Assembly (NCBI GenBank): GCA_022446815.1
Contig: JAKVCD010000005.1
Location: 64,522 to 128,521 of the forward strand
Length of the DNA stretch: 64,000 bases
Reading direction: 5' to 3'
Source of the DNA: Planctomycetota bacterium
GTDB taxonomy: Bacteria; Planctomycetota; UBA1135; GCA-002686595
The position numbers were made by a program, and so were the translations under genes. The notes under the pieces are model-generated. The model was not told the origin of the DNA and made no database searches. It worked only from the letters and a program-made list of their open reading frames with translations. Positions 51,962 through 64,000 of this stretch are shown in pieces; the stretch's first letter is position 1; every line of letters begins with the position of its first letter.

Positions 51962-53211
51962 AGACGATCATCATGATCGCTAAGAAGTCTCTTGCGAGAC
52001 ACAAGCTCTCGACAAGCGTGACCGCGGGTTCGCTCGCCCTCGCTTGCGGCCTCGTGATTGGCGTCTTCTCTATTCAAGAGCAGTCTTATCAGGCATTCAC
52101 GACAGGCGCGCCTGGCTTCGATGCGGTCCTCGGAGCGCGCGGTAGTCAGCTCCAGCTCGTCATGAACAGCGTGCTGCACCTAGACACCTCACCAGGGAAC
52201 ATTCCCTACAAGGCCTACACTGAAATGCGCGATGATCCGCGCGTGAAGCTGGCGGTCCCCTACGCGGTCGGAGACAACTACAGAGGCTACAGGGTCGTAG
52301 GGACGACCCCCGAGCTGCTGACTGAGTTCGAGCTCTCCGACGGCGTCGGCTACCAGATCATGCCCGGCGGCCGGGTCTTTGATGACCTCAAGATGGAGGC
52401 CGTAGTCGGGAGTCAGGTGGCGCGAAAGACAGGGCTTCGCGTCGGCTCACATTTGCACTTTGAGCACGGCGTCGAGGAAGAGATGGGGCATGACCACGAG
52501 GACGAGTACATCGTGGTTGGCATCCTTGAGCCGACGAACACCCCGGCAGATAAGGTGATCTGGTGCCCGCTCGAGGGTATGTATCGCTTGGATGGGCACG
52601 TCCTGCGAGGGGGCGGAGAGGTCTACATAGCGAAGCCGGACGAGGAGATTCCTGACGAAGTGAAAGAGGTGAGCGCCGTGATGTTGGCCTTCAAGAGCCC
52701 CCAGGCCGGCTTCCAGTTCTCTCAGCAGATTAACGGCGGTAAGGACATGACCCTCGCTTGGCCCATCGCGCGTGCCATGGCGCAGCTCTTCGACAAGATC
52801 GGCTGGGCACACAAAGTCCTGAGCCTGGTGGCCTACCTTGTCTGCGTCGTGGGTGCTGCCTCGATCCTTGCGAGCCTTTACAACGCGATGAACGAGCGCC
52901 GGAGGGAGTTCGCTATCTTGCGTGCTCTAGGTGCACGTCGCTCGACGGTCTTTGGCGCGATCCTCACTGAGTCCACAGCGATTGCTGCCCTTGGTGGCCT
53001 CATGGGGCTCCTCGTCTATGGCCTAGTGTTCACGATCGCAGCTCAGGTGATCCGAGCTGAGGCCGGGATCGTCTTGGACATTTGGCAGCTACACTCGAGC
53101 ATGTGGTTAGCGCCCCTAGGAGTCACCTTGCTAGGCGCCCTCGCTGGGATCGTCCCCGCGATGAAGGCCTACCGCACTGATGTCGCCACCCACATCGTTG
53201 CTCACTCCTGA
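51958..53211 (+). CDS. ABC transporter permease, MacB/FtsX/LolCE type
   Basis: A 417-residue protein with one N-terminal membrane segment, a periplasmic MacB-PCD-like domain (residues ~45-270) and three C-terminal segments (VAYLVCVVGAASILASLYNAMNERR opens the FtsX core). NERRREFAILRALGARRSTV is the coupling-helix signature. The periplasmic domain contains HFEHGVEEEMGHDHEDEY, a His/Asp/Glu-rich patch that could bind metal. TGATG overlap with the first DUF3299 gene. Mechanotransmission rather than pumping is typical of the class. Confidence 0.92.
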   Translation: MKTIIMIAKKSLARHKLSTSVTAGSLALACGLVIGVFSIQEQSYQAFTTGAPGFDAVLGARGSQLQLVMNSVLHLDTSPGNIPYKAYTEMRDDPRVKLAVPYAVGDNYRGYRVVGTTPELLTEFELSDGVGYQIMPGGRVFDDLKMEAVVGSQVARKTGLRVGSHLHFEHGVEEEMGHDHEDEYIVVGILEPTNTPADKVIWCPLEGMYRLDGHVLRGGGEVYIAKPDEEIPDEVKEVSAVMLAFKSPQAGFQFSQQINGGKDMTLAWPIARAMAQLFDKIGWAHKVLSLVAYLVCVVGAASILASLYNAMNERRREFAILRALGARRSTVFGAILTESTAIAALGGLMGLLVYGLVFTIAAQVIRAEAGIVLDIWQLHSSMWLAPLGVTLLGALAGIVPAMKAYRTDVATHIVAHS

Positions 53212-53780
53212 TGAGGAAGCTAACAGCTAGCTTTACGGTCCTTCTGCTAGCCTCATGTGGTGAAGATCTCTCCAAGGTTGATGGGCCTCCGCCGGAGGGA
53301 GCTTCGCTCCGAGGGAACAGCGTGGTCGCGTCCATCGAGCCGAAGGAGCCCGAGCCGGAGCCGGAGCCCTTCGATGAAGAGGGCTATGAAACCATCAACT
53401 TCGATCTCCTTGGCGAGTTCGAATACCCGGTCTATGTGAAGATCAAAGAGGGAGAGGAGCTTCCGGAGATCCCGGAAGAGGTCCGGACCCAAAACGGTAA
53501 GAAGATCAAGATCACGGGCTTCATGAATCCTGTGCGCTTTGATCGAGAGGGTGTCAGCGAGTTCTTGCTCGTGAAAGACATCCTCGGCTGCTGCTTTGGC
53601 GCGACCCCGAAGATGAACCACTGGATCCGTGTTCGGATGAAGGAGGGGGAGCGCGCCAAGTTCTATGCCTACGACCAGTTGACGGTCCTCGGGGAGTTCG
53701 AGGTTTCTGAGGAGGTCGAAGACGGCTACGTCATGAGCATTTACCGCATGACGGTCGATCACCTCACGAGGGAGGAGTAG
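53211..53780 (+). CDS. DUF3299 lipoprotein (first copy)
   Basis: A 189-residue protein with lipobox VLLLASCG (Cys16) and an acidic Pro/Glu-rich linker. The DUF3299 core follows: KIKITGFMNPVRFDREGVSEFLLVKDI and LGCCFGATPKMNHWIRVRM, with a conserved CC pair. C-terminal VMSIYRMTVDHL closes the fold. DUF3299 occurs next to MacB-like ABC transporters in other phyla, in some cases zinc-linked, to my recollection. It is the ATG-overlapping partner of the permease and 4 nt before the second copy. Confidence 0.9.
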   Translation: MRKLTASFTVLLLASCGEDLSKVDGPPPEGASLRGNSVVASIEPKEPEPEPEPFDEEGYETINFDLLGEFEYPVYVKIKEGEELPEIPEEVRTQNGKKIKITGFMNPVRFDREGVSEFLLVKDILGCCFGATPKMNHWIRVRMKEGERAKFYAYDQLTVLGEFEVSEEVEDGYVMSIYRMTVDHLTREE

Positions 53781-53784
53781 GGCC

Positions 53785-54432
53785 TTGCGCCTCGCCTTCA
53801 CAGCTGTCGCTCTCGTCGGCGTGGGTCTGGCCGCCCGCTTCAGCCTCGCATCCGAGGACATCGGCGCGCCTCTCGTTCCTTTGGATGAGCTCGAGGGGAA
53901 TGCACTCCGGCGGGAGCCGAGCGAGCTCACTCTTTTGGAGGGAGAGAGCTCTGGGGAGCTCGTCCCTGAAGAGGCTGAGGCAGCCTCCGGTGTCGTACTC
54001 GAGGGTGGCTACTTACCTGACGAGATCGAGGAGCAGTACGAATGGCTAGAATTCAGCTTCCTAACGAGCTTTGAATATCCGGACCTCGTCGAGCTTGATG
54101 CAGAGGAGGCCCCTCCGGAGCTGCCTGCGGACGTGGCAGAGCTCGATGGCTTGATGATCGCGATTGAGGGCTTCATGAACCCTCTCGCCTTTGACCGTGA
54201 GGGTGTGAGCCAGTTCGCCCTCGTTAACGACCCCTTGAACTGCTGCTTCGGTAATACGCCGAACATGAACCACTGGATCGACGTCACCCTGCCGGAGGGC
54301 GAGCGCACAGCCTTCTACTCCCTGGATCCGGTCGCTGTATATGGCCGACTGGAGGTCGGAGAGGCCTATGAGGACGGCTTCGTCGTCAGCCTCTTCAGGA
54401 TGCGCGCGGATCACGTGATAGGGGACTTCTAG
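53785..54432 (+). CDS. DUF3299 exported protein (second copy)
   Basis: A 215-residue protein from TTG 53785, preceded by GGAGGAG. It has signal peptide MRLAFTAVALVGVGLAARFSLA, not a lipobox. The core is IAIEGFMNPLAFDREGVSQFALVNDPLNCCFGNTPNMNHWIDV and FVVSLFRMRADHV, clearly a paralogue of the first copy including the CC pair. The ~90-residue acidic N-terminal linker is longer. Two tandem copies of the domain are unusual. A hairpin follows the stop. Confidence 0.88.
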   Translation: MRLAFTAVALVGVGLAARFSLASEDIGAPLVPLDELEGNALRREPSELTLLEGESSGELVPEEAEAASGVVLEGGYLPDEIEEQYEWLEFSFLTSFEYPDLVELDAEEAPPELPADVAELDGLMIAIEGFMNPLAFDREGVSQFALVNDPLNCCFGNTPNMNHWIDVTLPEGERTAFYSLDPVAVYGRLEVGEAYEDGFVVSLFRMRADHVIGDF

Positions 54433-54631: not shown

Positions 54632-56500
54632 ATGAGCTCTCGCTTCTCCCTGCGCATCACCTCGGGTGTTCACGATGGTGAGCAGCACGAGCTAGAGGGA
54701 CCGCGGGTGACCGTCGGCCGCAAGCCAGGAAACAGTCTCTGTCTTGAGGAGAGCTCGGTCTCTGGGACCCACGCAGAGCTCTTGATCGAGGGCGGGACCG
54801 TGACCCTCCGAGACCGCAACAGCACCAACGGCACAAAGGTGGGCGGGTCAGCGATTGATGAGCGCGTCTTGGCGCACGGCGACCAGGTCACCTTCGGCTC
54901 CGTGCAGGCACTCTTTGAGGACGCAGAGGTCGGCGGAGCAGCGAGCGAGGCTGAGGCTGATGCTGTCGGCTCTTTGAGCGCCGCTGCGCTGGCGGACAGC
55001 GGCAAGCGCTCGCGCTCGGGCTTCCTCATCGTCGTCGCGGGCATCCTCCTCCTCGGCGCCGGCGTCTGGGTCGGGCTCGGGATGCTGGATGGTGAGGGTG
55101 GCGGCAGCGCGCTCCCTGTCGCAACGGTCGAGGGCGACCTCCTAGATGGCAGCGGAGCCTTTGAGGGAGAGAGCAGCGCTTGGACCAACGACGGAGCTGC
55201 CTCTGTGGAGTTCTTTAACTCCAGGCAGGCCGCCGCGACGGGACTGAATGGGATGAACGCAGAGCTGATCTCTGGTGAGCAGGCATGCCTCTTGAGTCCT
55301 AACGTCAGCACTCGTGGAGGTACGAAGATGGTCGCGCGGGTGAGCGCTGACGCTGACATGGCGGTCGGCGCGCGGCTGGGTGTTCGCTTCTCCAGAGGTG
55401 ACGGGGATCAGGGGACGGTGGCTTGGAGCGCAGTCATGGACGGCAGCGGAGAGGTCATGGTCGAGGCTGTGACTCCCGCTGGTTACGACAGCGCGCAGGT
55501 CATCATCGAAGCGCGAGCCTCAGGTGATGGCGCTGTGAGCGTCGATGACGCCAGCCTCACGAGCGCGGGGACAGGCCAAGGCGCACAGGAGCTCGGCGGC
55601 TACGCCTTCCACCTGCTTGGTGAGCCTGCCCAGAGCGTCTGCCTCACGAAGATCAGCGCGCTCTCCTTAGGAGGCCTTGAGGTAGAGGGCGCCACCCTCA
55701 CCGGCGCGCTCATAGAGAAGGGTATGGACCTCAGCGCGAGCCAGGCTGGCGCGCTCAGCTTGAGCGTCGATGCCGCCCTCGTTTCGAAGGGAGTCGCTAG
55801 CATCGGCGAGAGCGGGCACCAAGTACACGGCGCGGAGTTTGAGCGCGAGGGAGTGACCAGCGTTCTCCTCGGCGAGGGCAACGACCTCGTCGCCATCCAC
55901 TGGGAGAGCCCGGCTCAGGTGCGCGCTCGCAGAGAGGGGGAGGGGATGGGCTTAGAGGTCTCTCTCATAGACACCTCCTTCAGGCTCCAAGTCGACTTCA
56001 AGGAGGAGCGCGTCCACGCAGGCGACCTCGCCTACGCAGCGCGGGGTGCAGAGCGAGAGGGACAGCTCGGTGACTGCCTCGGCTCGTGGGCCGAGCTCCT
56101 CGAGCGCTACCCCTACCAAGAGGCGCTCGTAGTGGAGGCCGAGGGTGCGCGCGGCCGGCTGGTCCAAGCGGGCATGCTGGAGCTGCAAGAGGTGCGCGCG
56201 GAGCTCGAGAGAGCCTCCTTCTTCCGCCTCGTGGAGCTCTATCGCGCCTGCAGGTCGCAGGCCGCTGCGGTTGGCGAACGGTACGCGGGGAGCGAAGTAC
56301 AAGAAGAGGCTGACGCCTTGGTTGAGGCCGTCGAAGCAGAACTGACCCTCCTCGAGGTCGACCTCGATGCTGGCGAGGTCTCTCGCCTCCAAGCGATCCA
56401 CGCCGTGCTCAAAGCGAGCGATTCACCGAAGCTCGCCGGCGAGGTCGCGAGCTATCTTGAGAGCGAGTTCAGCGCGCCCGCTGATGGGGGAGGCGAGTAG
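54632..56500 (+). CDS. FHA-domain single-pass membrane protein
   Basis: A 622-residue protein. Residues 1-95 are an FHA domain (VTVGRKPGNSLCL, SVSGTHAELL, DRNSTNGTKV, with the Gly-Arg, Ser-x-x-His and Asn-Gly residues of phosphothreonine binding). A membrane segment LIVVAGILLLGAGVWVGLG lies at ~128-147. The ~470-residue outside part is strand-rich, then helical near the C terminus. It begins a gene series through the pseudopilins and directly abuts the PilM-N gene. It could link the Ser/Thr kinase system to pilus/secretion assembly. Confidence 0.85.
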   Translation: MSSRFSLRITSGVHDGEQHELEGPRVTVGRKPGNSLCLEESSVSGTHAELLIEGGTVTLRDRNSTNGTKVGGSAIDERVLAHGDQVTFGSVQALFEDAEVGGAASEAEADAVGSLSAAALADSGKRSRSGFLIVVAGILLLGAGVWVGLGMLDGEGGGSALPVATVEGDLLDGSGAFEGESSAWTNDGAASVEFFNSRQAAATGLNGMNAELISGEQACLLSPNVSTRGGTKMVARVSADADMAVGARLGVRFSRGDGDQGTVAWSAVMDGSGEVMVEAVTPAGYDSAQVIIEARASGDGAVSVDDASLTSAGTGQGAQELGGYAFHLLGEPAQSVCLTKISALSLGGLEVEGATLTGALIEKGMDLSASQAGALSLSVDAALVSKGVASIGESGHQVHGAEFEREGVTSVLLGEGNDLVAIHWESPAQVRARREGEGMGLEVSLIDTSFRLQVDFKEERVHAGDLAYAARGAEREGQLGDCLGSWAELLERYPYQEALVVEAEGARGRLVQAGMLELQEVRAELERASFFRLVELYRACRSQAAAVGERYAGSEVQEEADALVEAVEAELTLLEVDLDAGEVSRLQAIHAVLKASDSPKLAGEVASYLESEFSAPADGGGE

Positions 56501-58147
56501 ATGGCACGTCAGGTCACAGGGGTCGATGTCGGGACGCGCTCCGCGCGCTTCTTGAAGGGCTACTACAAGGGCAACACCTTTCACGCTACGGGCTTCAGCG
56601 TCTCCGACGACCCCGGAGGCTCCATCGACTCCACCTGGGAGTCGGCAGAGCCTGAGTTCAAGCCGACCGCTGCGCGCGTGGGGATCACAGGCCGGGAGAT
56701 GAACTTGCGCTACACGCGCGTCCCTCGCGTCCCTGATTGGCAGCTGCGGCGCCTGATGCGCTTCGAGGTCGAGGAGGTGGGTGGCTCCTCCGGAGCGGCG
56801 GTAGCGAGCGACTTCAACCTCTTGCCGGACCTGCCTGAGGTCGAGGGGGAAGACGTCGTCCTCCTCGCGATGGCTCGTGAGGACCTCCTCGAGACACACG
56901 CAGACAACTTGGCTGATGTGGGCGGGACCCTCGACAGCTTCGCCCCCGCGAGCCTAGGCCTCTACAACGCCTGGCTCCGCTACGGAGTCATCGAAGACGA
57001 CACGGTCCTCCTCGCGAACATCGGCCACGAGAACATCGACGTCGTGATCTGCCGCGGACCGGATCTCGTCTTTGCTCGCAACCTCTCGGGCGGCTCAGAG
57101 CTCTTTGACTCTGTCCTAGCCGCGCAGTTTGGTGTCAGCCCCCGCAAGGCTGAGGACTTGAAGAAGCGCCTCGTTGACCTCACACCGGGCGCTCAGTTCG
57201 CCGACTCAAACCACGAGAAGGCCAGCCGCGCCGCGCTCGCGCCGGCGGGCCAGCTGCTCTCGCTCTTGCAGTCCACGGTCCTCTTCTCGAAGGGTCAGCT
57301 CAAGATCCCGAATCTCAAGGTCGACCGCGTCCTGCTCTGCGGCGGTGGCGCAGCGCTGGAGGGACTCTGCCCGTACCTCGGACAGGGCATGGGCGTGCCG
57401 GTCGAGCTCTTTGACCCCTTCCGGGTCGTTGAGACAGAGGGGCTCTCGCCTGAAGAGTCGGACCTGCTCGAGGAGTATCAACTCGAGTCCGTCGTCGCAT
57501 TAGGCCTCGCTACTATGGCCTCGGACCCCGAGGGCTATTCGATCGAGATCCTCCCGGAGTCCGTCAAGAAGCGCCGTGACCTGATGAACGGGACGGCCTT
57601 CCTCGCTGCGGCGGTCGTCTTCGCTCTCGCCTACCTCGGCTGGAGCGCGATGAGCTTGTCTAGCAGCCTCGGCGAGCTCGAAGGAGACGTGCGGGTGGCT
57701 TCGAGGAAGCTGCAAGACGCCAAGCGCACAGAGAAGCAGGCCTTTGATCTGCAGGAGCGGAGCGAGGTCTTGAGCGGCTACGCCGATGAGTTGATGACCA
57801 CTCTAGGTACGGGAGAGCAGCTCGCCCGCAGCCTCGAGGCGCTGCACAAGAGCTTGCCCGAGGAGTTCTGGCTGACCAACCTTGAGACGAGGATAGGGGA
57901 AGACAAGGACCTCCTCGATGAGAAGGAGGCGCAGCCCTTCCTGCGCGTCGAAGGACGCGCCCGCGAAGGGACTCGCTCTATGTCTGTCCTGTATGAGCAG
58001 TTCCTCGCGCGGCTGCGCGCCGAGCTCCCGATGGCGCGCATTACAGCCTCACCCAACGTGCGGGGGACGCAGTTCGAGCTGGCGCTGACCTTGTTTGGCG
58101 GTCCGCCCCAAGGGGACGCCGCGATCACGATAGGGGAGGACGCCTGA
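56501..58147 (+). CDS. PilM-PilN fusion protein (type IV pilus/T2SS inner-membrane platform)
   Basis: A 548-residue protein. Residues ~1-345 are a PilM/GspL-like actin-fold ATPase (GVDVGTRSARFLKG, LANIGHENIDVVIC, VLLCGGGAALEGL). A membrane segment FLAAAVVFALAYLGW follows at ~367-385, then a PilN/GspL-C-like coiled coil and ferredoxin-type fold (residues ~390-535). In most organisms PilM and PilN are separate genes, so this fusion resembles GspL. ATG 56501 directly follows the FHA stop. Confidence 0.85.
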   Translation: MARQVTGVDVGTRSARFLKGYYKGNTFHATGFSVSDDPGGSIDSTWESAEPEFKPTAARVGITGREMNLRYTRVPRVPDWQLRRLMRFEVEEVGGSSGAAVASDFNLLPDLPEVEGEDVVLLAMAREDLLETHADNLADVGGTLDSFAPASLGLYNAWLRYGVIEDDTVLLANIGHENIDVVICRGPDLVFARNLSGGSELFDSVLAAQFGVSPRKAEDLKKRLVDLTPGAQFADSNHEKASRAALAPAGQLLSLLQSTVLFSKGQLKIPNLKVDRVLLCGGGAALEGLCPYLGQGMGVPVELFDPFRVVETEGLSPEESDLLEEYQLESVVALGLATMASDPEGYSIEILPESVKKRRDLMNGTAFLAAAVVFALAYLGWSAMSLSSSLGELEGDVRVASRKLQDAKRTEKQAFDLQERSEVLSGYADELMTTLGTGEQLARSLEALHKSLPEEFWLTNLETRIGEDKDLLDEKEAQPFLRVEGRAREGTRSMSVLYEQFLARLRAELPMARITASPNVRGTQFELALTLFGGPPQGDAAITIGEDA

Positions 58148-58920
58148 TGGACCTCAACGACTACTGGCAGGAGAACAAGAACTTTGTCCTGTGTGTCGCC
58201 GCAGGTTTCCTCGTGTTCTTCATCGGCAACGGCCTCATCCAGAGCAACATCGGCGCAGACGTCACGGCAGCGCGTGGGCGGATCAACTCCACCCAGCGTG
58301 AGCTCGGGAAGATCACCCTTACCAAGGCCGACCTGAGGGAGGCGGAGCGAGAGAACGAAGAGCTCCGCATGGCTGTCGGAGAGCTCGTGGAGCGCGTGGG
58401 CTTTAAAGCCCGCCCCGATTTCACCCTCGACCCCTCGAGAGGCTCTGCGAGCAACCAATACTTTGCTCAGGTCTCTACCATCCGCGAGGAGCTCTCGCGC
58501 GAGGCGGGCCGCCTCGGGGTGGTCATCCCTGACGACCTCGGCTTGCCCACCCTCGCGCCGACACGAGAAGACGAGCTCGCGCGCTATCTCGAGGCCTTCG
58601 ACCTCGTTGAGCGTGTCGTCCGTCTCTCGTTCGACGTCGGCGTCCGCAAGGTCGACAAGATCAAGATCAGCCTCGACCCCAAGCTGCGCGGGCCCAAGGG
58701 CCTCGAGTCCATCGAGAAGACGCGGGTGAAGGTCAACTTCGCTGGGAACTCCGGCGCCTTGGTGCAGCTCCTCGCTGCGTGCCAGGACATCTCCCAGGGG
58801 CAAGTGCTCCTCGTGCAAGATTGCGAGCTCACGCCTGAGCGCGCACGCCCCACGGAGGCGCTCATGGAGATCAACTTCATCGTCGCCCGACCGCGCCTCG
58901 AGCTAGAGGAGGACGCCTGA
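58147..58920 (+). CDS. PilO/GspM-like protein
   Basis: A 257-residue protein beginning MDLNDYWQENKNFVLCVAAG, one membrane segment (residues ~14-33), a coiled coil, then a strand-helix domain ending LQDCELTPERARPTEALMEINFIVARP. Position after PilM-N, size and layout match PilO, the alignment-complex partner of PilN, although sequence similarity is weak. ATG 58147 overlaps the PilM-N stop (TGATG), and its own stop overlaps the next start. Confidence 0.72.
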   Translation: MDLNDYWQENKNFVLCVAAGFLVFFIGNGLIQSNIGADVTAARGRINSTQRELGKITLTKADLREAERENEELRMAVGELVERVGFKARPDFTLDPSRGSASNQYFAQVSTIREELSREAGRLGVVIPDDLGLPTLAPTREDELARYLEAFDLVERVVRLSFDVGVRKVDKIKISLDPKLRGPKGLESIEKTRVKVNFAGNSGALVQLLAACQDISQGQVLLVQDCELTPERARPTEALMEINFIVARPRLELEEDA

Positions 58921-61676
58921 TGAACATCCGCCAAGAGCAAGTCATCTTCCTCGTCGCCGCTCTGATCCTAGGGGTCATGGTCTACGGCGACATCAGCAGT
59001 GACACCTCTGGTCAGCGGAGCCGCACCCGCCGCAGCTCCGGCGCGCAGGGTGTGGATCCGATGAGCTTTCCGGCTCCGGACCTAGCGCTGGTCACAGCCC
59101 CTGAGCGAGATCCCAGCGCCTTGAGCCGCTCCCTCTTCGAGCCTCCGCGGGACACGCGACCGCTCCCGTTGCTTGCGTTCTCGCTGCCGCCCCGTCCTGC
59201 GCTGCCTGGACTCACCCCGCCCACTGAGCCCGGCCCTGCGCCCAAGCTCTACGGCGCGCACCTCCGGCGTCAGCCGAGCGAGGTCGACCCGACGCCTGGG
59301 CTCTTCGATGAGACCGGCGCAGCTGAGGGCGCGATCGATGAGTTTGAGATCCTCGAGGATCCCTTTGCGGATCCAGAGCCCTTCGAGGAAGCCTCAGGGC
59401 TCGGTAGCTCTGGCGGCCTAGGCGCGGACGAAGGGCTGCCCCTCGACACCGACCTCTTCACAGCCGACGAGATCGCCGAGCGGATCGCGAGCTATCAAAA
59501 GCTCTATGACTGGATTCGTCTCGAGAGCCTCCGCTTCGGCCACATTCAGAACAAGGACCGCTTCTCCCTCGCCTCTCGCCCGAACGAGCCTATCGAGTTC
59601 ATGGAGCTCGACATGGCGACGGGTAAGCCGCGCTATCCGGGGCAGGGCGCGATCTCCTTCGAGCGCGATCGCGTCGAGGAGTTCTCCTTCGCGCAGACGG
59701 TCCCGAACGAGATCGAACAGAAGCGCTTGCAGTTCACTGGTGAGCTGCGCACTGGCCAGTATGTGGACCTCCTCGCCTTCGCGGACTGGTGTGTCTCGCA
59801 GCGGCTCGAGACTCCTCGCGCTCTCGAGGTCGCCGAGGAGATGTACACCGCGGCGATCTCGATCTCTGGCGGTGAGCCGGAGCCCCGACTCGGCCTCGCT
59901 CGTTGCTATGAGGCAGGCTTCCGCTTCGAGGAGGCCTTCGCTGTCTACACAGAGCTCCTCGAGGGTGGCCTTGACACTCACCCTGCAGTGCTCGCTCGCC
60001 TCGGGGGCCTAGAGCGTCGCTTCCGTATGTACGAGCGTGCACGCGTTCACCTCACTGAGGCAGAGCGCTTCGGCCGTACGAGCTGGGAGGCTCAGTGGGG
60101 CTTAGGGAGCTTCCTCCTCGAACAGGGCGAAGAGGAGACGGCGAACGCTCACCTCGAGCTTGCCGCGCGCTTCGAGCCCTCAGCTCCTGATCTCAAGCAG
60201 ACCCGGGCTGCTATCCGCTTTGACTACGGCCGGGGCCTGATCGCCGCCGGTCGCATCCGCGAGGCGCAGAACTGGTTCTCTAAGTCTGTGCAGGCTGACC
60301 CTGAGTTCGCCGCAGGCGACGCGGGCGTCTTGGCCTGTTCGCTGCTCCTCGGCGAGGTCGACGCGCTAGAGGTCGGTCGAACGAGCACCTTTGAGGGGCT
60401 GCTCAACTCCGGACTCGCCGCCGCGATGGACGGCGACTGGACCTCTGCGAAGGAGCAGTTCACCCTCGCCGCCTCAGCTGACCCGCTGCGGGCCGGAGAG
60501 GCCTGGCGCGCGCTGTCGTGGGTCGCGGGCCGCACCGGCTATCCGGAGGAGGCGCTGAGCTTCATAGAGCTCGCCTACGAGAACGATCCGACGGACGTGT
60601 GGACGCTTTACCATCGCGGGCGAGTGCTCGCGGAGCGAGATGATCTCGAGGGCGCACAGGACTCTCTGCAGGCTGCCCTGGACCAAGAGCTCATGCTGCC
60701 CGACGCCCTCGCGCTCCTCGGTGACCTCGCGTTCCGGCAGGAGAACCACGAGGCGGCCGAGCGCTACCTCGAGCGGGCGGTGATGCTCGACGATGAGGTC
60801 GCCGCCTTCCATGAGCTGCGCGGTATGAACCTCCTCAGGCTCGGTCGAATCATGGATGCGCGCGACTCCCTTGAGCGCGCGCTCGAGCTGGACCGCTCAC
60901 GAACTGCGGCACGCAGCTCGCTCGCATGGACCTTCTACGCCAACGGTAACTCCCAAGAGGCGATCACCCGCCTCCGCGAGTTGGATGATCAGCTCCGCGA
61001 TCGCACCGAAGAGGACCCTGAGCGCCTCTACGCGCAAGGCCAGATTGACCGCATTGTCGCGCACGAGGAGAAGGTCGCTTGGACGGACCGCTTCGAGCGC
61101 CGTGAGCTCCGCAACGGGTGGATCACGGATGAGAACGCCGGCCCGCTGGTGAGAATGGCTGACGGCGGCGTCGTGATCGATGGCTCCTTCACGAAGCGCG
61201 GCCGAGCGAGGGTCTTCCGCGAGGAGCTCGCGGGGAACTTCGTGTCCTTCGAGAGCACCGTCACGATCGAGCCCGGCGCCCTCTGCCGCGTCGGCGTCTT
61301 CGTTAGCCGCGAGCGCTCGCGCCGCGGCTCTTTAGACGTCCAGAACGAGGTCGCGGTGGCGCGCCATCACGACGGCAGCCTGCAGACGCGGGTCCTGAAA
61401 CGCTCGGAGGGTGAGCAAGAGTGGACCGATGTCTCCGTGATCAACTGGGAGACGGGGCAGCCCACCATCCTGCGCATCGAGCGCCTCGGGGAGAGTACGA
61501 AGACGACCTTCCGCCTTTTAGTAGACGGTGTGCCTGTTGCAGATGGCCTACGGGTGCCTGGGATCGGCGCGACGACTGAGCAGCTGCGCTTTGGCGTCTT
61601 CGTCGAGGGCGAGCCTGGCCGCTCCGCGAGCGTGCGTGTCGACGACGTCGAGTTCATCTATAAGGATCGCGGCTGA
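58920..61676 (+). CDS. 918-residue anchored TPR protein with C-terminal LamG-like domain
   Basis: A short N-terminal segment, EQVIFLVAALILGVMVYGD, is followed by a Pro-rich ~120-residue region (RSLFEPPRDTRPLPLLAF, reminiscent of GspC/PilP linkers). Then about ten TPR-type helix pairs between residues ~270 and 690 (FEEAFAVYTELLEGG, AAERYLERAVMLDD, ARDSLERALELDRS). The last ~200 residues are a strand-rich LamG/DUF1080-type sandwich. I know no standard pilus protein with this layout. Its place between PilO and pseudopilin genes suggests an outer-face scaffold. Confidence 0.75.
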   Translation: MNIRQEQVIFLVAALILGVMVYGDISSDTSGQRSRTRRSSGAQGVDPMSFPAPDLALVTAPERDPSALSRSLFEPPRDTRPLPLLAFSLPPRPALPGLTPPTEPGPAPKLYGAHLRRQPSEVDPTPGLFDETGAAEGAIDEFEILEDPFADPEPFEEASGLGSSGGLGADEGLPLDTDLFTADEIAERIASYQKLYDWIRLESLRFGHIQNKDRFSLASRPNEPIEFMELDMATGKPRYPGQGAISFERDRVEEFSFAQTVPNEIEQKRLQFTGELRTGQYVDLLAFADWCVSQRLETPRALEVAEEMYTAAISISGGEPEPRLGLARCYEAGFRFEEAFAVYTELLEGGLDTHPAVLARLGGLERRFRMYERARVHLTEAERFGRTSWEAQWGLGSFLLEQGEEETANAHLELAARFEPSAPDLKQTRAAIRFDYGRGLIAAGRIREAQNWFSKSVQADPEFAAGDAGVLACSLLLGEVDALEVGRTSTFEGLLNSGLAAAMDGDWTSAKEQFTLAASADPLRAGEAWRALSWVAGRTGYPEEALSFIELAYENDPTDVWTLYHRGRVLAERDDLEGAQDSLQAALDQELMLPDALALLGDLAFRQENHEAAERYLERAVMLDDEVAAFHELRGMNLLRLGRIMDARDSLERALELDRSRTAARSSLAWTFYANGNSQEAITRLRELDDQLRDRTEEDPERLYAQGQIDRIVAHEEKVAWTDRFERRELRNGWITDENAGPLVRMADGGVVIDGSFTKRGRARVFREELAGNFVSFESTVTIEPGALCRVGVFVSRERSRRGSLDVQNEVAVARHHDGSLQTRVLKRSEGEQEWTDVSVINWETGQPTILRIERLGESTKTTFRLLVDGVPVADGLRVPGIGATTEQLRFGVFVEGEPGRSASVRVDDVEFIYKDRG

Positions 61677-62317
61677 TGAGACGCACCCTGCACGCCTCGC
61701 AAAAGAGCGGCTTCACGCTCATCGAGCTCCTCGCTGTGATCGTGATCCTTGGGATCTTGCTCGCCTTCCTCCTCCCGCGCCTCGGCCAGCAAGAGGACAT
61801 CATCAAGGCGGGCCTCACAGAGAAGCGCCTGCATGAGATCGCTGTGGCGATCTCCTCCTATGAGCAAGACTACGGCGACTGGCCAGCGAGCTCTTGGCAA
61901 GGGGAGTGGGGTCCTGTGCCTGACACGACCAACCTCGGCGTCGAGTGCCTCGTGATTCAGCTTTGGTCACCTGATGTGGGCGGCGCGATCCTCTCAGAGG
62001 ACTACCTCGACAACGCTGACGGTGACTCTGCGCGGAAGAGCCTCACGGTCTTCCCTAACAGGCAGTGCCTTGAGCTCGTCGACATGTGGCAAAACCCCAT
62101 CGCCTACCTGCACAACCGCGACTACACCCGCGAGGACGTCTACACCACCTTTGACCTCGTGACGGGGGAGCTCCTTGAGACCAAGGTGAAGGGCTGGGAG
62201 AACCCGCTCACCGGCGCGCCTTACAACCCTCGCAAGTTCCAGCTCATCTCTGCTGGGATCGACGGTGCGTTTGGGACGGAAGACGACATCACCAACTTCA
62301 AGCGCCAAGACAGGTAG
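61676..62317 (+). CDS. GspG-like major pseudopilin
   Basis: A 213-residue protein with prepilin motif QKSGFTLIELLAVIVILGIL (cleavage after Gly, Phe+1, Glu+5). The conserved C-terminal region reads VDMWQNPIAYLHN, then PYNPRKFQLISAGIDGAFGTEDDI with the calcium-type GxDGxxGTxDD loop of T2SS GspG. It is longer than usual GspG (~140) because of a middle insertion. ATG 61676 overlaps the TPR-protein stop. It would be the main fibre subunit of this secretion system. Confidence 0.88.
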   Translation: MRRTLHASQKSGFTLIELLAVIVILGILLAFLLPRLGQQEDIIKAGLTEKRLHEIAVAISSYEQDYGDWPASSWQGEWGPVPDTTNLGVECLVIQLWSPDVGGAILSEDYLDNADGDSARKSLTVFPNRQCLELVDMWQNPIAYLHNRDYTREDVYTTFDLVTGELLETKVKGWENPLTGAPYNPRKFQLISAGIDGAFGTEDDITNFKRQDR

Positions 62318-62324
62318 GCCTCTG

Positions 62325-63353
62325 GTGCATGGTGCGAAGCTCAAGCTCGGGGGGGAGAGCGCGGCGCGGAGCGGGATGACTCTGATCGAGCTCCTCGTCG
62401 TCATGGGGCTCATCGCGCTGGTCCTCGGAGCAGGCCTCGGCGCGCTCGCTGGGATCGAGACCGGAAGCGGGCCCGCGGTCGCTGTCGTGAACTCGAGCCT
62501 GCGCTCTGCGAACAATTGGGCCGTCGCTCGCCGCGCGCCGGCGCGCGTCACCTTTGACGCGGAGACGAACACCATTCACGCCGAGGGCTTGGACGTCATC
62601 GGCACCTGGCACTTCGAGACCGTGCCGCCGCGCGGCGCCTTCGGCCTCAACGGGAGCATGGACAACATCGACCTGCACCCTGATGGATACCTCGGTAAGG
62701 CGATGGACCTCGAGAACGCAGTCTCTGGCGGCGGATACTTCGTGCCGGTGCAAAGCAGCCCGACCTTCGACTTGTCCTCAGGCTTTCAGATCGCCTTCGC
62801 CGCCATGCCTACAGACGATGGCTCTGGGCGAGTCCTCTCGATCGGTGAGTCCGTCGGCGTGGAGTTGACCTCCTCCGGGGCGGTCAAGGCGCACTTCATG
62901 GGCGAGCTCCGTGACGAGAACGGCGCCGTGACGCCGACCGGCAAGGTGCAGGCGGAGACCTCTCCCGGACTGCTGCGGGTCGGGAGCTGGAGCCGAATCC
63001 TCGTGAGCTACGACCAGTCCGAGCTCGTGATCTTTGTCGAGGGCGTCCCCGCAGCGCGCACCCCCGACGTCGCCTGGGTGGTGAAGGTGGAGGGCCCCTT
63101 AGTCGTCGGAGGTGCGCGCCGCCAGTGGCCCGGGCGCATCGACTCGCTCGTGGTGAGCGCGGTCGCGGCAGAGGAGGAGGTGCAGCTGCCTGAGGGCGTG
63201 AGCTTCACCGAGACCGCGCCGAAGGAGGTGGTCTTCGCCGCGGGCGGTGGGCTGGACCGCAGGGTCCACTCCGAGCCCGTCCGCTTCTCGTTGGAGTTCG
63301 CCGACTCCACGACTGAGGTGATCGAGGTCGGCGTCTACGGGACGGTCCAGTAG
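62325..63353 (+). CDS. Pseudopilin fused to a LamG/concanavalin-like domain
   Basis: GTG 62325, 7 nt after gspG-like, gives VHGAKLKLGGESAARSGMTL then IELLVVMGLIALVLGAGLG, so 17 residues before the Gly-Met cleavage site (Met+1, Glu+5). Residues ~35-100 resemble the GspH head, then ~110-330 form a LamG-like sandwich (FDLSSGFQIAFAAMPTDDGSGRVLSIG, WSRILVSYDQSELVIFVEG, IDSLVVSAV). Total 342 residues, far longer than typical GspH (~170). The tip-like fusion would place a carbohydrate-binding-type domain on a pseudopilus. Confidence 0.82.
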   Translation: MHGAKLKLGGESAARSGMTLIELLVVMGLIALVLGAGLGALAGIETGSGPAVAVVNSSLRSANNWAVARRAPARVTFDAETNTIHAEGLDVIGTWHFETVPPRGAFGLNGSMDNIDLHPDGYLGKAMDLENAVSGGGYFVPVQSSPTFDLSSGFQIAFAAMPTDDGSGRVLSIGESVGVELTSSGAVKAHFMGELRDENGAVTPTGKVQAETSPGLLRVGSWSRILVSYDQSELVIFVEGVPAARTPDVAWVVKVEGPLVVGGARRQWPGRIDSLVVSAVAAEEEVQLPEGVSFTETAPKEVVFAAGGGLDRRVHSEPVRFSLEFADSTTEVIEVGVYGTVQ

Positions 63354-63366
63354 GGGACAGGTCGGG

Positions 63367-64000
63367 ATGATCATTCAGAGAGCAAGGCATACACAGGAGA
63401 CCAGCGGGCTCGCGCTCGTGACGGTCATCCTCGTGCTCGCTGCGCTCCTCGTGATGGTGACGCCTTTCCTCCTCACCTCCCGCAACGCAGATCGCGCGAG
63501 CGCGCAGCTTTTCGACCGCGTCCAAGCGGGGACGGCTCTTGATAGCGCGCGCAACCACGCCCGCGCGGTCTTGGAGTCCACGCACTCCTTGCACGACAGC
63601 ACCCCTTGGTTCGACTCGGTAGAGGAGCTCCAAGTTACGAACGACTTCGCCGCGGACTTCCTCAACGCCAACGATGACCGTGGCGTGATGTGGGACCTCA
63701 GGGTTGAGGACCTCGCCGGGCGAATCGACCTCAACTCCGCAGGGGTCTACGCGATGGCGAACCTCCTGCAGTCCACCGCGCGCTTCTCGGAGGTCGTTCA
63801 GGGCGACATGGAGGAGCTCCCGATCTCTGGAGGCACCTTGCCGGATCAAGGCTTCGTCTGGTCCCGCGGCGAGCTCATCGGCTATACGGGTATCGAAGAT
63901 GGCAACCTCACGGGCCTGGTCCGCGGCCTGGGCGCTCAGTTCGACGAGGACGGGAACTCACTTGCAGGGCCGCGTCCGGCCTCCTCGCACGGCATCGGAG
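63367..64000 (+). CDS. GspK/PilX-like membrane protein, 3' end missing
   Basis: From ATG 63367, GSGGGATG-like spacing of 13 nt after the LamG pseudopilin stop. Residues 1-40 are MIIQRARHTQETSGLALVTV then ILVLAALLVMVTPFLLTSRNA, a prepilin-like membrane helix in which Glu+5 is absent, as in GspK and PilX. MWDLRVEDLAGRIDLNSAGV is the GspK core signature. The frame is open to the window end (211 residues seen). Minor pseudopilin-type tip protein of the same operon. Confidence 0.78.
   Translation, partial: MIIQRARHTQETSGLALVTVILVLAALLVMVTPFLLTSRNADRASAQLFDRVQAGTALDSARNHARAVLESTHSLHDSTPWFDSVEELQVTNDFAADFLNANDDRGVMWDLRVEDLAGRIDLNSAGVYAMANLLQSTARFSEVVQGDMEELPISGGTLPDQGFVWSRGELIGYTGIEDGNLTGLVRGLGAQFDEDGNSLAGPRPASSHGIG

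Follow-up and report, generated by a model that had tools for sequence, protein, structure and literature searches.

A conserved planctomycete operon of the type IV filament superfamily combines an FHA protein, a PilM-PilN fusion and pseudopilins with predicted lectin-type modules

Analysis of a 64-kb stretch of planctomycete DNA (the window; positions 64522–128521 of contig C40, in a genome of 3.25 Mb that is 92% complete) revealed an operon that belongs to the type IV filament superfamily and is conserved as a unit through much of Planctomycetota. It is located at 54632–64000 (window numbering) and appears to be undescribed as a unit. In our view there is about an even chance that it encodes the platform and the tip of a third filament machine of the type IV kind in this genome, one that would obtain its motor and pore in trans and would bind glycans.

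The operon includes seven ORFs in the window, all co-directional on the + strand (Table 1). Their intergenic gaps are 0, −1, −1, −1, 7 and 13 nt, in line with the initial annotation, which had described seven genes in one direction, touching or at most 13 nt apart. The anatomy given there was also reproduced by domain matches to FHA, PilM, TPR, N-methyl, Laminin_G_3, GspG and GspK families. GC3 was 0.77–0.88 for the six genes that are complete within the window. The operon runs on past the window end: the GspK-like gene is 5.2 kb long and lies mostly outside (it continues to L007:7063), and beyond it are two class III pilins in the J and then the I position, assigned from the N-methyl motif and gene order. 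Pseudopilins G, H, I, J and K are all present in the operon. The pilins are followed by a 518-aa protein, a SurA/PpiC-like protein, ScpB and a PpiD-like protein, of which ScpB and the PpiD-like protein were named by eye. Just upstream of the operon, after an FtsX-like permease, two adjoining DUF3299 proteins were observed (53211–54432) that are probably unrelated to it. A search for sigma-54 promoters gave 13 matches, below chance expectation, and a sigma-70 and terminator scan of the gap upstream of the operon gave no result. Among named relatives, the closest is a Planctomycetota bacterium sampled at station ALOHA, whose PilM-N protein is 92% identical.

Table 1. Genes of the operon in the window (window numbering).
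Feature	Length (aa)	Position	Strand	Evidence
FHA protein	622	54632–56500	+	Pfam FHA 2.7e-15; TM from hydropathy
PilM-PilN fusion	548	56501–58147	+	Profile matches to PilM and M. xanthus PilN
PilO/GspM-position protein	257	58147–58920	+	Position, length, topology
TPR-lectin protein	918	58920–61676	+	TPR 1.1e-22; AF2 C-terminal sandwich (predicted)
GspG-like pseudopilin	213	61676–62317	+	N_methyl 1.7e-7; TIGR01710 GspG 3.2e-13
GspH-like pseudopilin with inserted LamG (predicted)		62325–63353	+	Laminin_G_3 4.6e-7; N_methyl; AF2, Foldseek
GspK-like gene, 5' part		63367–64000 (window end)	+	T2SS_GspK 1.3e-7; Laminin_G_3 6.3e-5 (under curated cut-off)

The FHA protein has a cytoplasmic FHA domain (residues 8–98), one transmembrane segment (~131–149) and then a periplasmic part. 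Residues R30, S44, H47, S64, T65, N66 and G67 are shared without exception by all 21 genomes compared, which represent 8 families, and the canonical phosphothreonine-binding Arg, Ser and Asn/Thr-Asn-Gly are all present, which agrees with the phosphothreonine-reading head claimed earlier. Such a head suggests kinase control of filament assembly, and 13 Hanks-type kinases scored over the cut-off in the genome. The periplasmic residues ~170–323 gave a profile match to the hyaluronate lyase CBM 4d0q (4e-6), by which this part resembles a CBM70-type carbohydrate-binding module. The protein also matched YscD_cpl (8e-13). Besides, an FHA-GAF-sigma54-activator-Fis gene was observed next to the operon in nine loci (L076, L077, L078, L080, L082, L088, L089, L093 and L095) that belong to other planctomycete classes; this regulator is absent from the window, and it suggests that in those classes a second FHA domain is tied to sigma-54 control.

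The proposed PilM-PilN fusion was recovered by profile as two parts of one chain. An actin-like PilM part (residues 1–~341; PilM match 1.6e-24 over 1–341) is followed by the linker YSIEILPESVKKRR, a transmembrane segment at ~366 and a PilN-like periplasmic part, with Myxococcus xanthus PilN matched over positions 348–466 (5.1e-4). GspL was not among the profile matches of this protein. The linker at the PilM/PilN join lines up with the INLLP motif of PilN from the same genome (hhalign, 6% probability), an alignment that is illustrative only. The Amuc_1101 family was matched by all 21 PilM-N members (best 3.5e-40), the window protein at 99 bits, far under the 650-bit equivalog cut-off. The next protein has an N-terminal transmembrane segment (~13–31) and then a periplasmic region, and its position, length and topology are conserved across loci. 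These features fit the PilO-like label of the initial annotation, but neither the family search nor the PDB profile search gave a significant match to PilO or GspM families. Similarly, hhalign against PilO of the same genome and against a GspM gave no result, and an Amuc_1100 match was seen for one of 20 members only at an insignificant level (0.034).

The TPR protein is composed of an N-terminal transmembrane segment, a proline-rich linker, a TPR array and a C-terminal domain at residues 712–918. Its linker contains a conserved R-x-x-F-x-x-P...PLPxL motif, which we take to be reminiscent of PilP/GspC. The C-terminal domain was modeled as a beta sandwich (AlphaFold2 pLDDT 90) with legume lectins, the Emp47p CRD and GH16 as top Foldseek matches (TMq ~0.6), and its best PDB profile match, PilC 7oa7, was insignificant (0.43). 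The C terminus of the 918-residue protein, where a LamG-type domain had been noted, is thus predicted to be a concanavalin/L-type-lectin sandwich.

The GspH-like pilin, which has a likely GTG start at 62325 (the longest frame is from 62265), has a modular-pilin layout, with a class III prepilin N terminus (N_methyl) and a grafted Laminin_G_3 module that scored over the curated cut-off. Its profile matched pilins across the N terminus and laminin LG across the middle (9.5e-9). Numbered along the 337-aa frame that was analyzed, the AF2 model (pLDDT 89.9) consists of a helix, two strands, a sandwich at ~92–277 and three closing strands, and Foldseek returned concanavalin-type folds. Many of the top entries were near-identical copies of one clostridial binding domain (TMq ~0.4); at the level of the model these matches speak to the concanavalin fold only and say nothing on function. 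Also, in homologue L092 the GspH C-terminal match comes after LamG. Structure prediction against LamG families therefore yielded sandwiches in both this pilin and the TPR protein, but the pilin module had been placed C-terminally, and in the model it is inserted within the GspH-type fold (residues ~92–277). LamG was detected in the H-like pilin of 8 of 10 distant homologues. The GspK-like protein (1724 aa) was recognized by T2SS_GspK and in other searches by GspK (5.9e-6) and T2SSK (0.0073), so that it and the GspG-like pseudopilin (GspG 3.2e-13) retain the family assignments originally given to them. It has its own LamG-like segment at residues 651–759, with a score under the curated cut-off; of 7 K homologues that were checked, 2 gave a detectable LamG match.

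We found the same gene order (FHA/PilM-PilN/PilO-position/TPR-lectin/GspG-like/GspH-LamG/GspK-like) in all 20 loci from the window's own order, which represent 8 families including that of the window. A right-size ORF occupied the TPR slot in each of them, with detectable similarity in 18. Each of the 154 genomes tested from the class contains the FHA protein. Outside the class, most of the 20 loci analyzed (~17 other families) keep the FHA, PilM-N, PilO, TPR, G, H, K order. Exceptions were L083 and L086 (f20, f56) and L090 and L091 (f30), in which H and K are absent, L084, which has no detectable FHA protein, and L080, which has no K; L085 is truncated where its contig stops, and L094 represents a second, divergent copy. 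Of 149 genomes sampled across the phylum, 88 (~60%) were marked by the PilM-N protein (profile at E ≤ 1e-40), and several near-complete genomes of this sample have no operon. PilM-N members group by family in the tree, which fits mainly vertical descent. The neighborhood search for the FHA + PilM-N + TPR + LamG combination thus showed that the layout recurs within and beyond the order, and this recurrence of gene order and content across families indicates that it is not a chance arrangement. The presence of the FHA protein in all tested genomes of one class and of PilM-N in ~60% of sampled Planctomycetota suggests that the operon probably has a basic role in these bacteria.

No ATPase, platform protein or secretin is located next to the operon, and GspD/GspE/GspF, PilB, PilT, PilC and PilQ were not found within the loci of the 8 and ~17 families. 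Six GspE-family matches and five secretins are present in the genome, none near the operon and the nearest on other contigs. The expectation that the D/E/F genes lie outside the window was therefore correct, and none of them adjoins the operon beyond 64000. A complete T4P is encoded on contig C7. GspD-E-F-G-H-I-J genes are found on C41, with D, E and F best matched by T2SS families, a GspL-GspM pair on C1 (L133:6315–8608) adjoining a ribBA-type gene, and a GspK-like gene on C36. A GspL-GspM pair beside a ribB-type gene was likewise noted at L167:266–4620. The T2SS of this genome is scattered over three contigs, and GspL-GspM sits apart from D-to-J. With separate K, L and M genes in the genome, this T2SS appears complete without the operon. 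In addition, C39 contains an E-T-E-F cassette (ATPase/PilT-like/ATPase/platform) with two extension-type ATPases. Such cassettes are conserved across the phylum (L138, L143, L147, L148, L152, L153 and C39 itself) and are sometimes trailed by several GspG-like pilins. Since they occur also in genomes that have no operon, the case for C39 as an exclusive partner is weakened. Because the MAG is not complete, missing genes could also reflect a gap.

Several other secretin and GspE loci were observed. C5-type secretins are close upstream of the operon only in family f15 and for this reason were not counted as evidence. On C5 (L074:8480–19901), a pair of large secretin-like proteins (~900 aa) encloses two short ORFs together with additional ORFs, which by eye include ExbD/ExbB-type energizers plus TPR proteins, an unusual secretin/energizer cluster. 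Secretin-containing ORFs of 1426–1579 residues beside GspE/F (L171:670–5409 and L172:2242–6522) may be unusually large GspD proteins. In G207, G226 and G287 (f52), the match to T2SS-type GspE begins only at ~residue 61–67 of the query, a pattern that looks like absence or divergence of the N-terminal GspL-docking domain; in the single f52 operon examined, no FHA gene was detected.

In the machine that we propose, the PilM-PilN fusion and the PilO-position protein would form an inner-membrane ring or platform, and the TPR protein would serve as a GspC/PilP-like connector towards the secretin. Pseudopilins G, H, K, J and I would assemble into a short filament that binds glycan through lectin-type modules on the H- and K-like subunits at its tip, and the CBM- and lectin-like periplasmic modules of the FHA and TPR proteins may receive or check the same ligand. 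The FHA head would gate assembly via a threonine-phosphorylated partner. The ATPase motor, platform protein F and secretin would be supplied in trans; by elimination, the C39 cassette is the first candidate for the motor and a shared T2SS motor the second. Such a machine would be distinct from both the ordinary T4P (C7) and the T2SS (C41, C1 and C36) of this genome. Glycan binding, tip location, gating, partner motor and direction are the elements of the scheme that we infer. With regard to direction, uptake or capture is favored over secretion by the number of sugar-binding-type modules and by the precedent of Akkermansia MUL2, while the glycan-binding reading has against it that LamG folds are not all lectins. 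The more specific idea of an FHA-gated glycan-uptake pseudopilus, forming a distinct Planctomycetota branch of type IV filaments and the counterpart of the Akkermansia glycan pilus, is in our opinion unlikely to hold in full. If true, the pseudopilus would pull polysaccharide through the secretin into the periplasm, a possible basis of polysaccharide uptake by planctomycetes.

It is also possible, if rather doubtful, that the operon provides the T2SS of this genome with an accessory or alternative platform and pseudopilus, which would share the secretin and motor of that system and secrete glycan-active enzymes, with the lectin modules recognizing cargo or docking the machine. T2SS-type GspE was found in 77 of the 88 PilM-N genomes and in 22 of the other 61, a co-occurrence that is confounded by phylogeny. 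Families that have lost the H and K pilins (f30; f20 and f56) have a broken D-to-J locus as well, which makes at least two separate events and points to shared machinery. In some operon-negative genomes, including G274 and G208, K, L and M come after D-to-J. However, the T2SS analyzed here has its own L-M pair (C1) and K-like gene (C36), and in the operon-bearing genome G158 an L-M pair orthologous to that on C1 (26% identity, 6e-22) is located with a ribB-type gene behind D-to-J; in G234, K, L and M adjoin the D-to-J locus. The L-M pair and K-like gene of this genome and the L-M pair of G158 also led us to reject the possibility that the operon represents a K-L-M module displaced from the D-E-F-G-H-I-J T2SS. 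That possibility had been attractive because D-to-J ends at J in about a dozen operon-bearing families, while K-L-M follows J in some operon-negative genomes.

Another reading, which we judge improbable, is that the sandwich domains do not bind sugar and act as structural spacers in the ordering of the assembly. The conserved LamG positions are mainly glycine, tryptophan and a G-x-x-D turn, so that the invariant residues look structural, and some distant H-like pilins have no detectable LamG match. On the other hand, the operon contains four separate sandwich- or CBM-like modules, in the FHA, TPR, GspH-like and GspK-like proteins; four independent domains of carbohydrate-binding type, one of them CBM70-like by profile, exceed what a generic spacer would need. 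We give the lowest probability to a dynamic type IV pilus that has a lectin at its tip, serves in surface adhesion or twitching and not in glycan uptake, and is powered by the C39 cassette with its PilT-like retraction ATPase: the homology to PilM/PilN and not GspL, the orphan state of this cassette and the adhesion mediated by the lectin pilins of S. sanguinis (PMC9934059) are consistent with it, but C39-type cassettes serve pilin-rich loci in operon-negative genomes, pilins of the GspG/H/I/J/K type usually make short pseudopili, and a complete T4P is already encoded on C7.

The proposed third machine, with glycan-binding tip subunits, was compared with what is known of planctomycetes and of related systems. 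No description of the operon layout or of the full combination was found in the open-access literature, and searches there for LamG with pseudopilin and for FHA with GspL gave no result; in particular, we found no account of this layout as a standard planctomycete T2SS. Lectin modules on pilins and PilM-type glycan loci of Verrucomicrobiota are known; the full combination appears to be new, as we have not found it described. Dextran-binding fibers have been seen in Planctopirus and Gemmata (PMC5394234), which may be without this operon; given that near-complete genomes exist in which it is absent, the operon need not correspond to these fibers. T2SS-type systems were reported to be rare outside Proteobacteria on the basis of locus-based detection (PMC4793230), and a machine split over several loci would escape such detection.

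Several known systems have the same cytoplasmic FHA, transmembrane and periplasmic arrangement as the operon FHA protein, namely YscD of T3SS, TagH of T6SS and GltG. In contrast to them, the operon protein keeps all phosphothreonine-binding residues and its periplasmic part is CBM-like. With the T2SS (GspC-M) the operon has in common the G, H, K, J and I-type pseudopilins, a single-chain PilM-like plus PilN-like protein, as in GspL, and a small bitopic protein in the place of GspM. It differs in that D, E and F are absent from it, the fusion matches PilM/PilN but not GspL, the FHA, TPR and lectin modules are no T2SS parts, and the genome has a separate T2SS. The PilM fold, the PilN-like part with an INLLP-like motif and the bitopic protein that follows recall PilMNOP of T4aP, as does the PilP/GspC-like linker motif of the TPR protein. 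However, PilM and PilN are fused in the operon, no PilQ, PilB, PilT or PilC is present in the locus, and pseudopilins are found where T4aP has one major pilin.

The initial annotation considered LamG domains on pilus parts to be beyond textbook T2SS and T4P. This holds for the full combination but not for the modules themselves: PF13385 ranks within the 15 most frequent architectures of modular pilins (PMC8179133), and PilC of S. sanguinis is a proven glycan-binding modular pilin (PMC9934059). PilC carries a concanavalin-type module, as does the GspH-like pilin, whereas the operon module lies within a GspH-type pilin and is accompanied by such modules on several further proteins. Similarly, the PilM-PilN fusion has a known relative in Akkermansia Amuc_1101, the best curated match to it. 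Amuc_1101 is encoded in MUL2, a locus of four genes (Amuc_1099–1102) with the secretin Amuc_1098, in which a PilM-type protein and a pilin function both in attaching to complex glycans and in taking them up (PMC13174399). The FHA protein, TPR-lectin protein, LamG pilins and K/J/I set of the operon are not described there. The planctomycete operon may help the bacteria grip or take up polysaccharides, and, if its lectin modules bind glycans, it would represent a concrete apparatus for the handling of large polysaccharides by planctomycetes that is linked to the Akkermansia glycan pilus.
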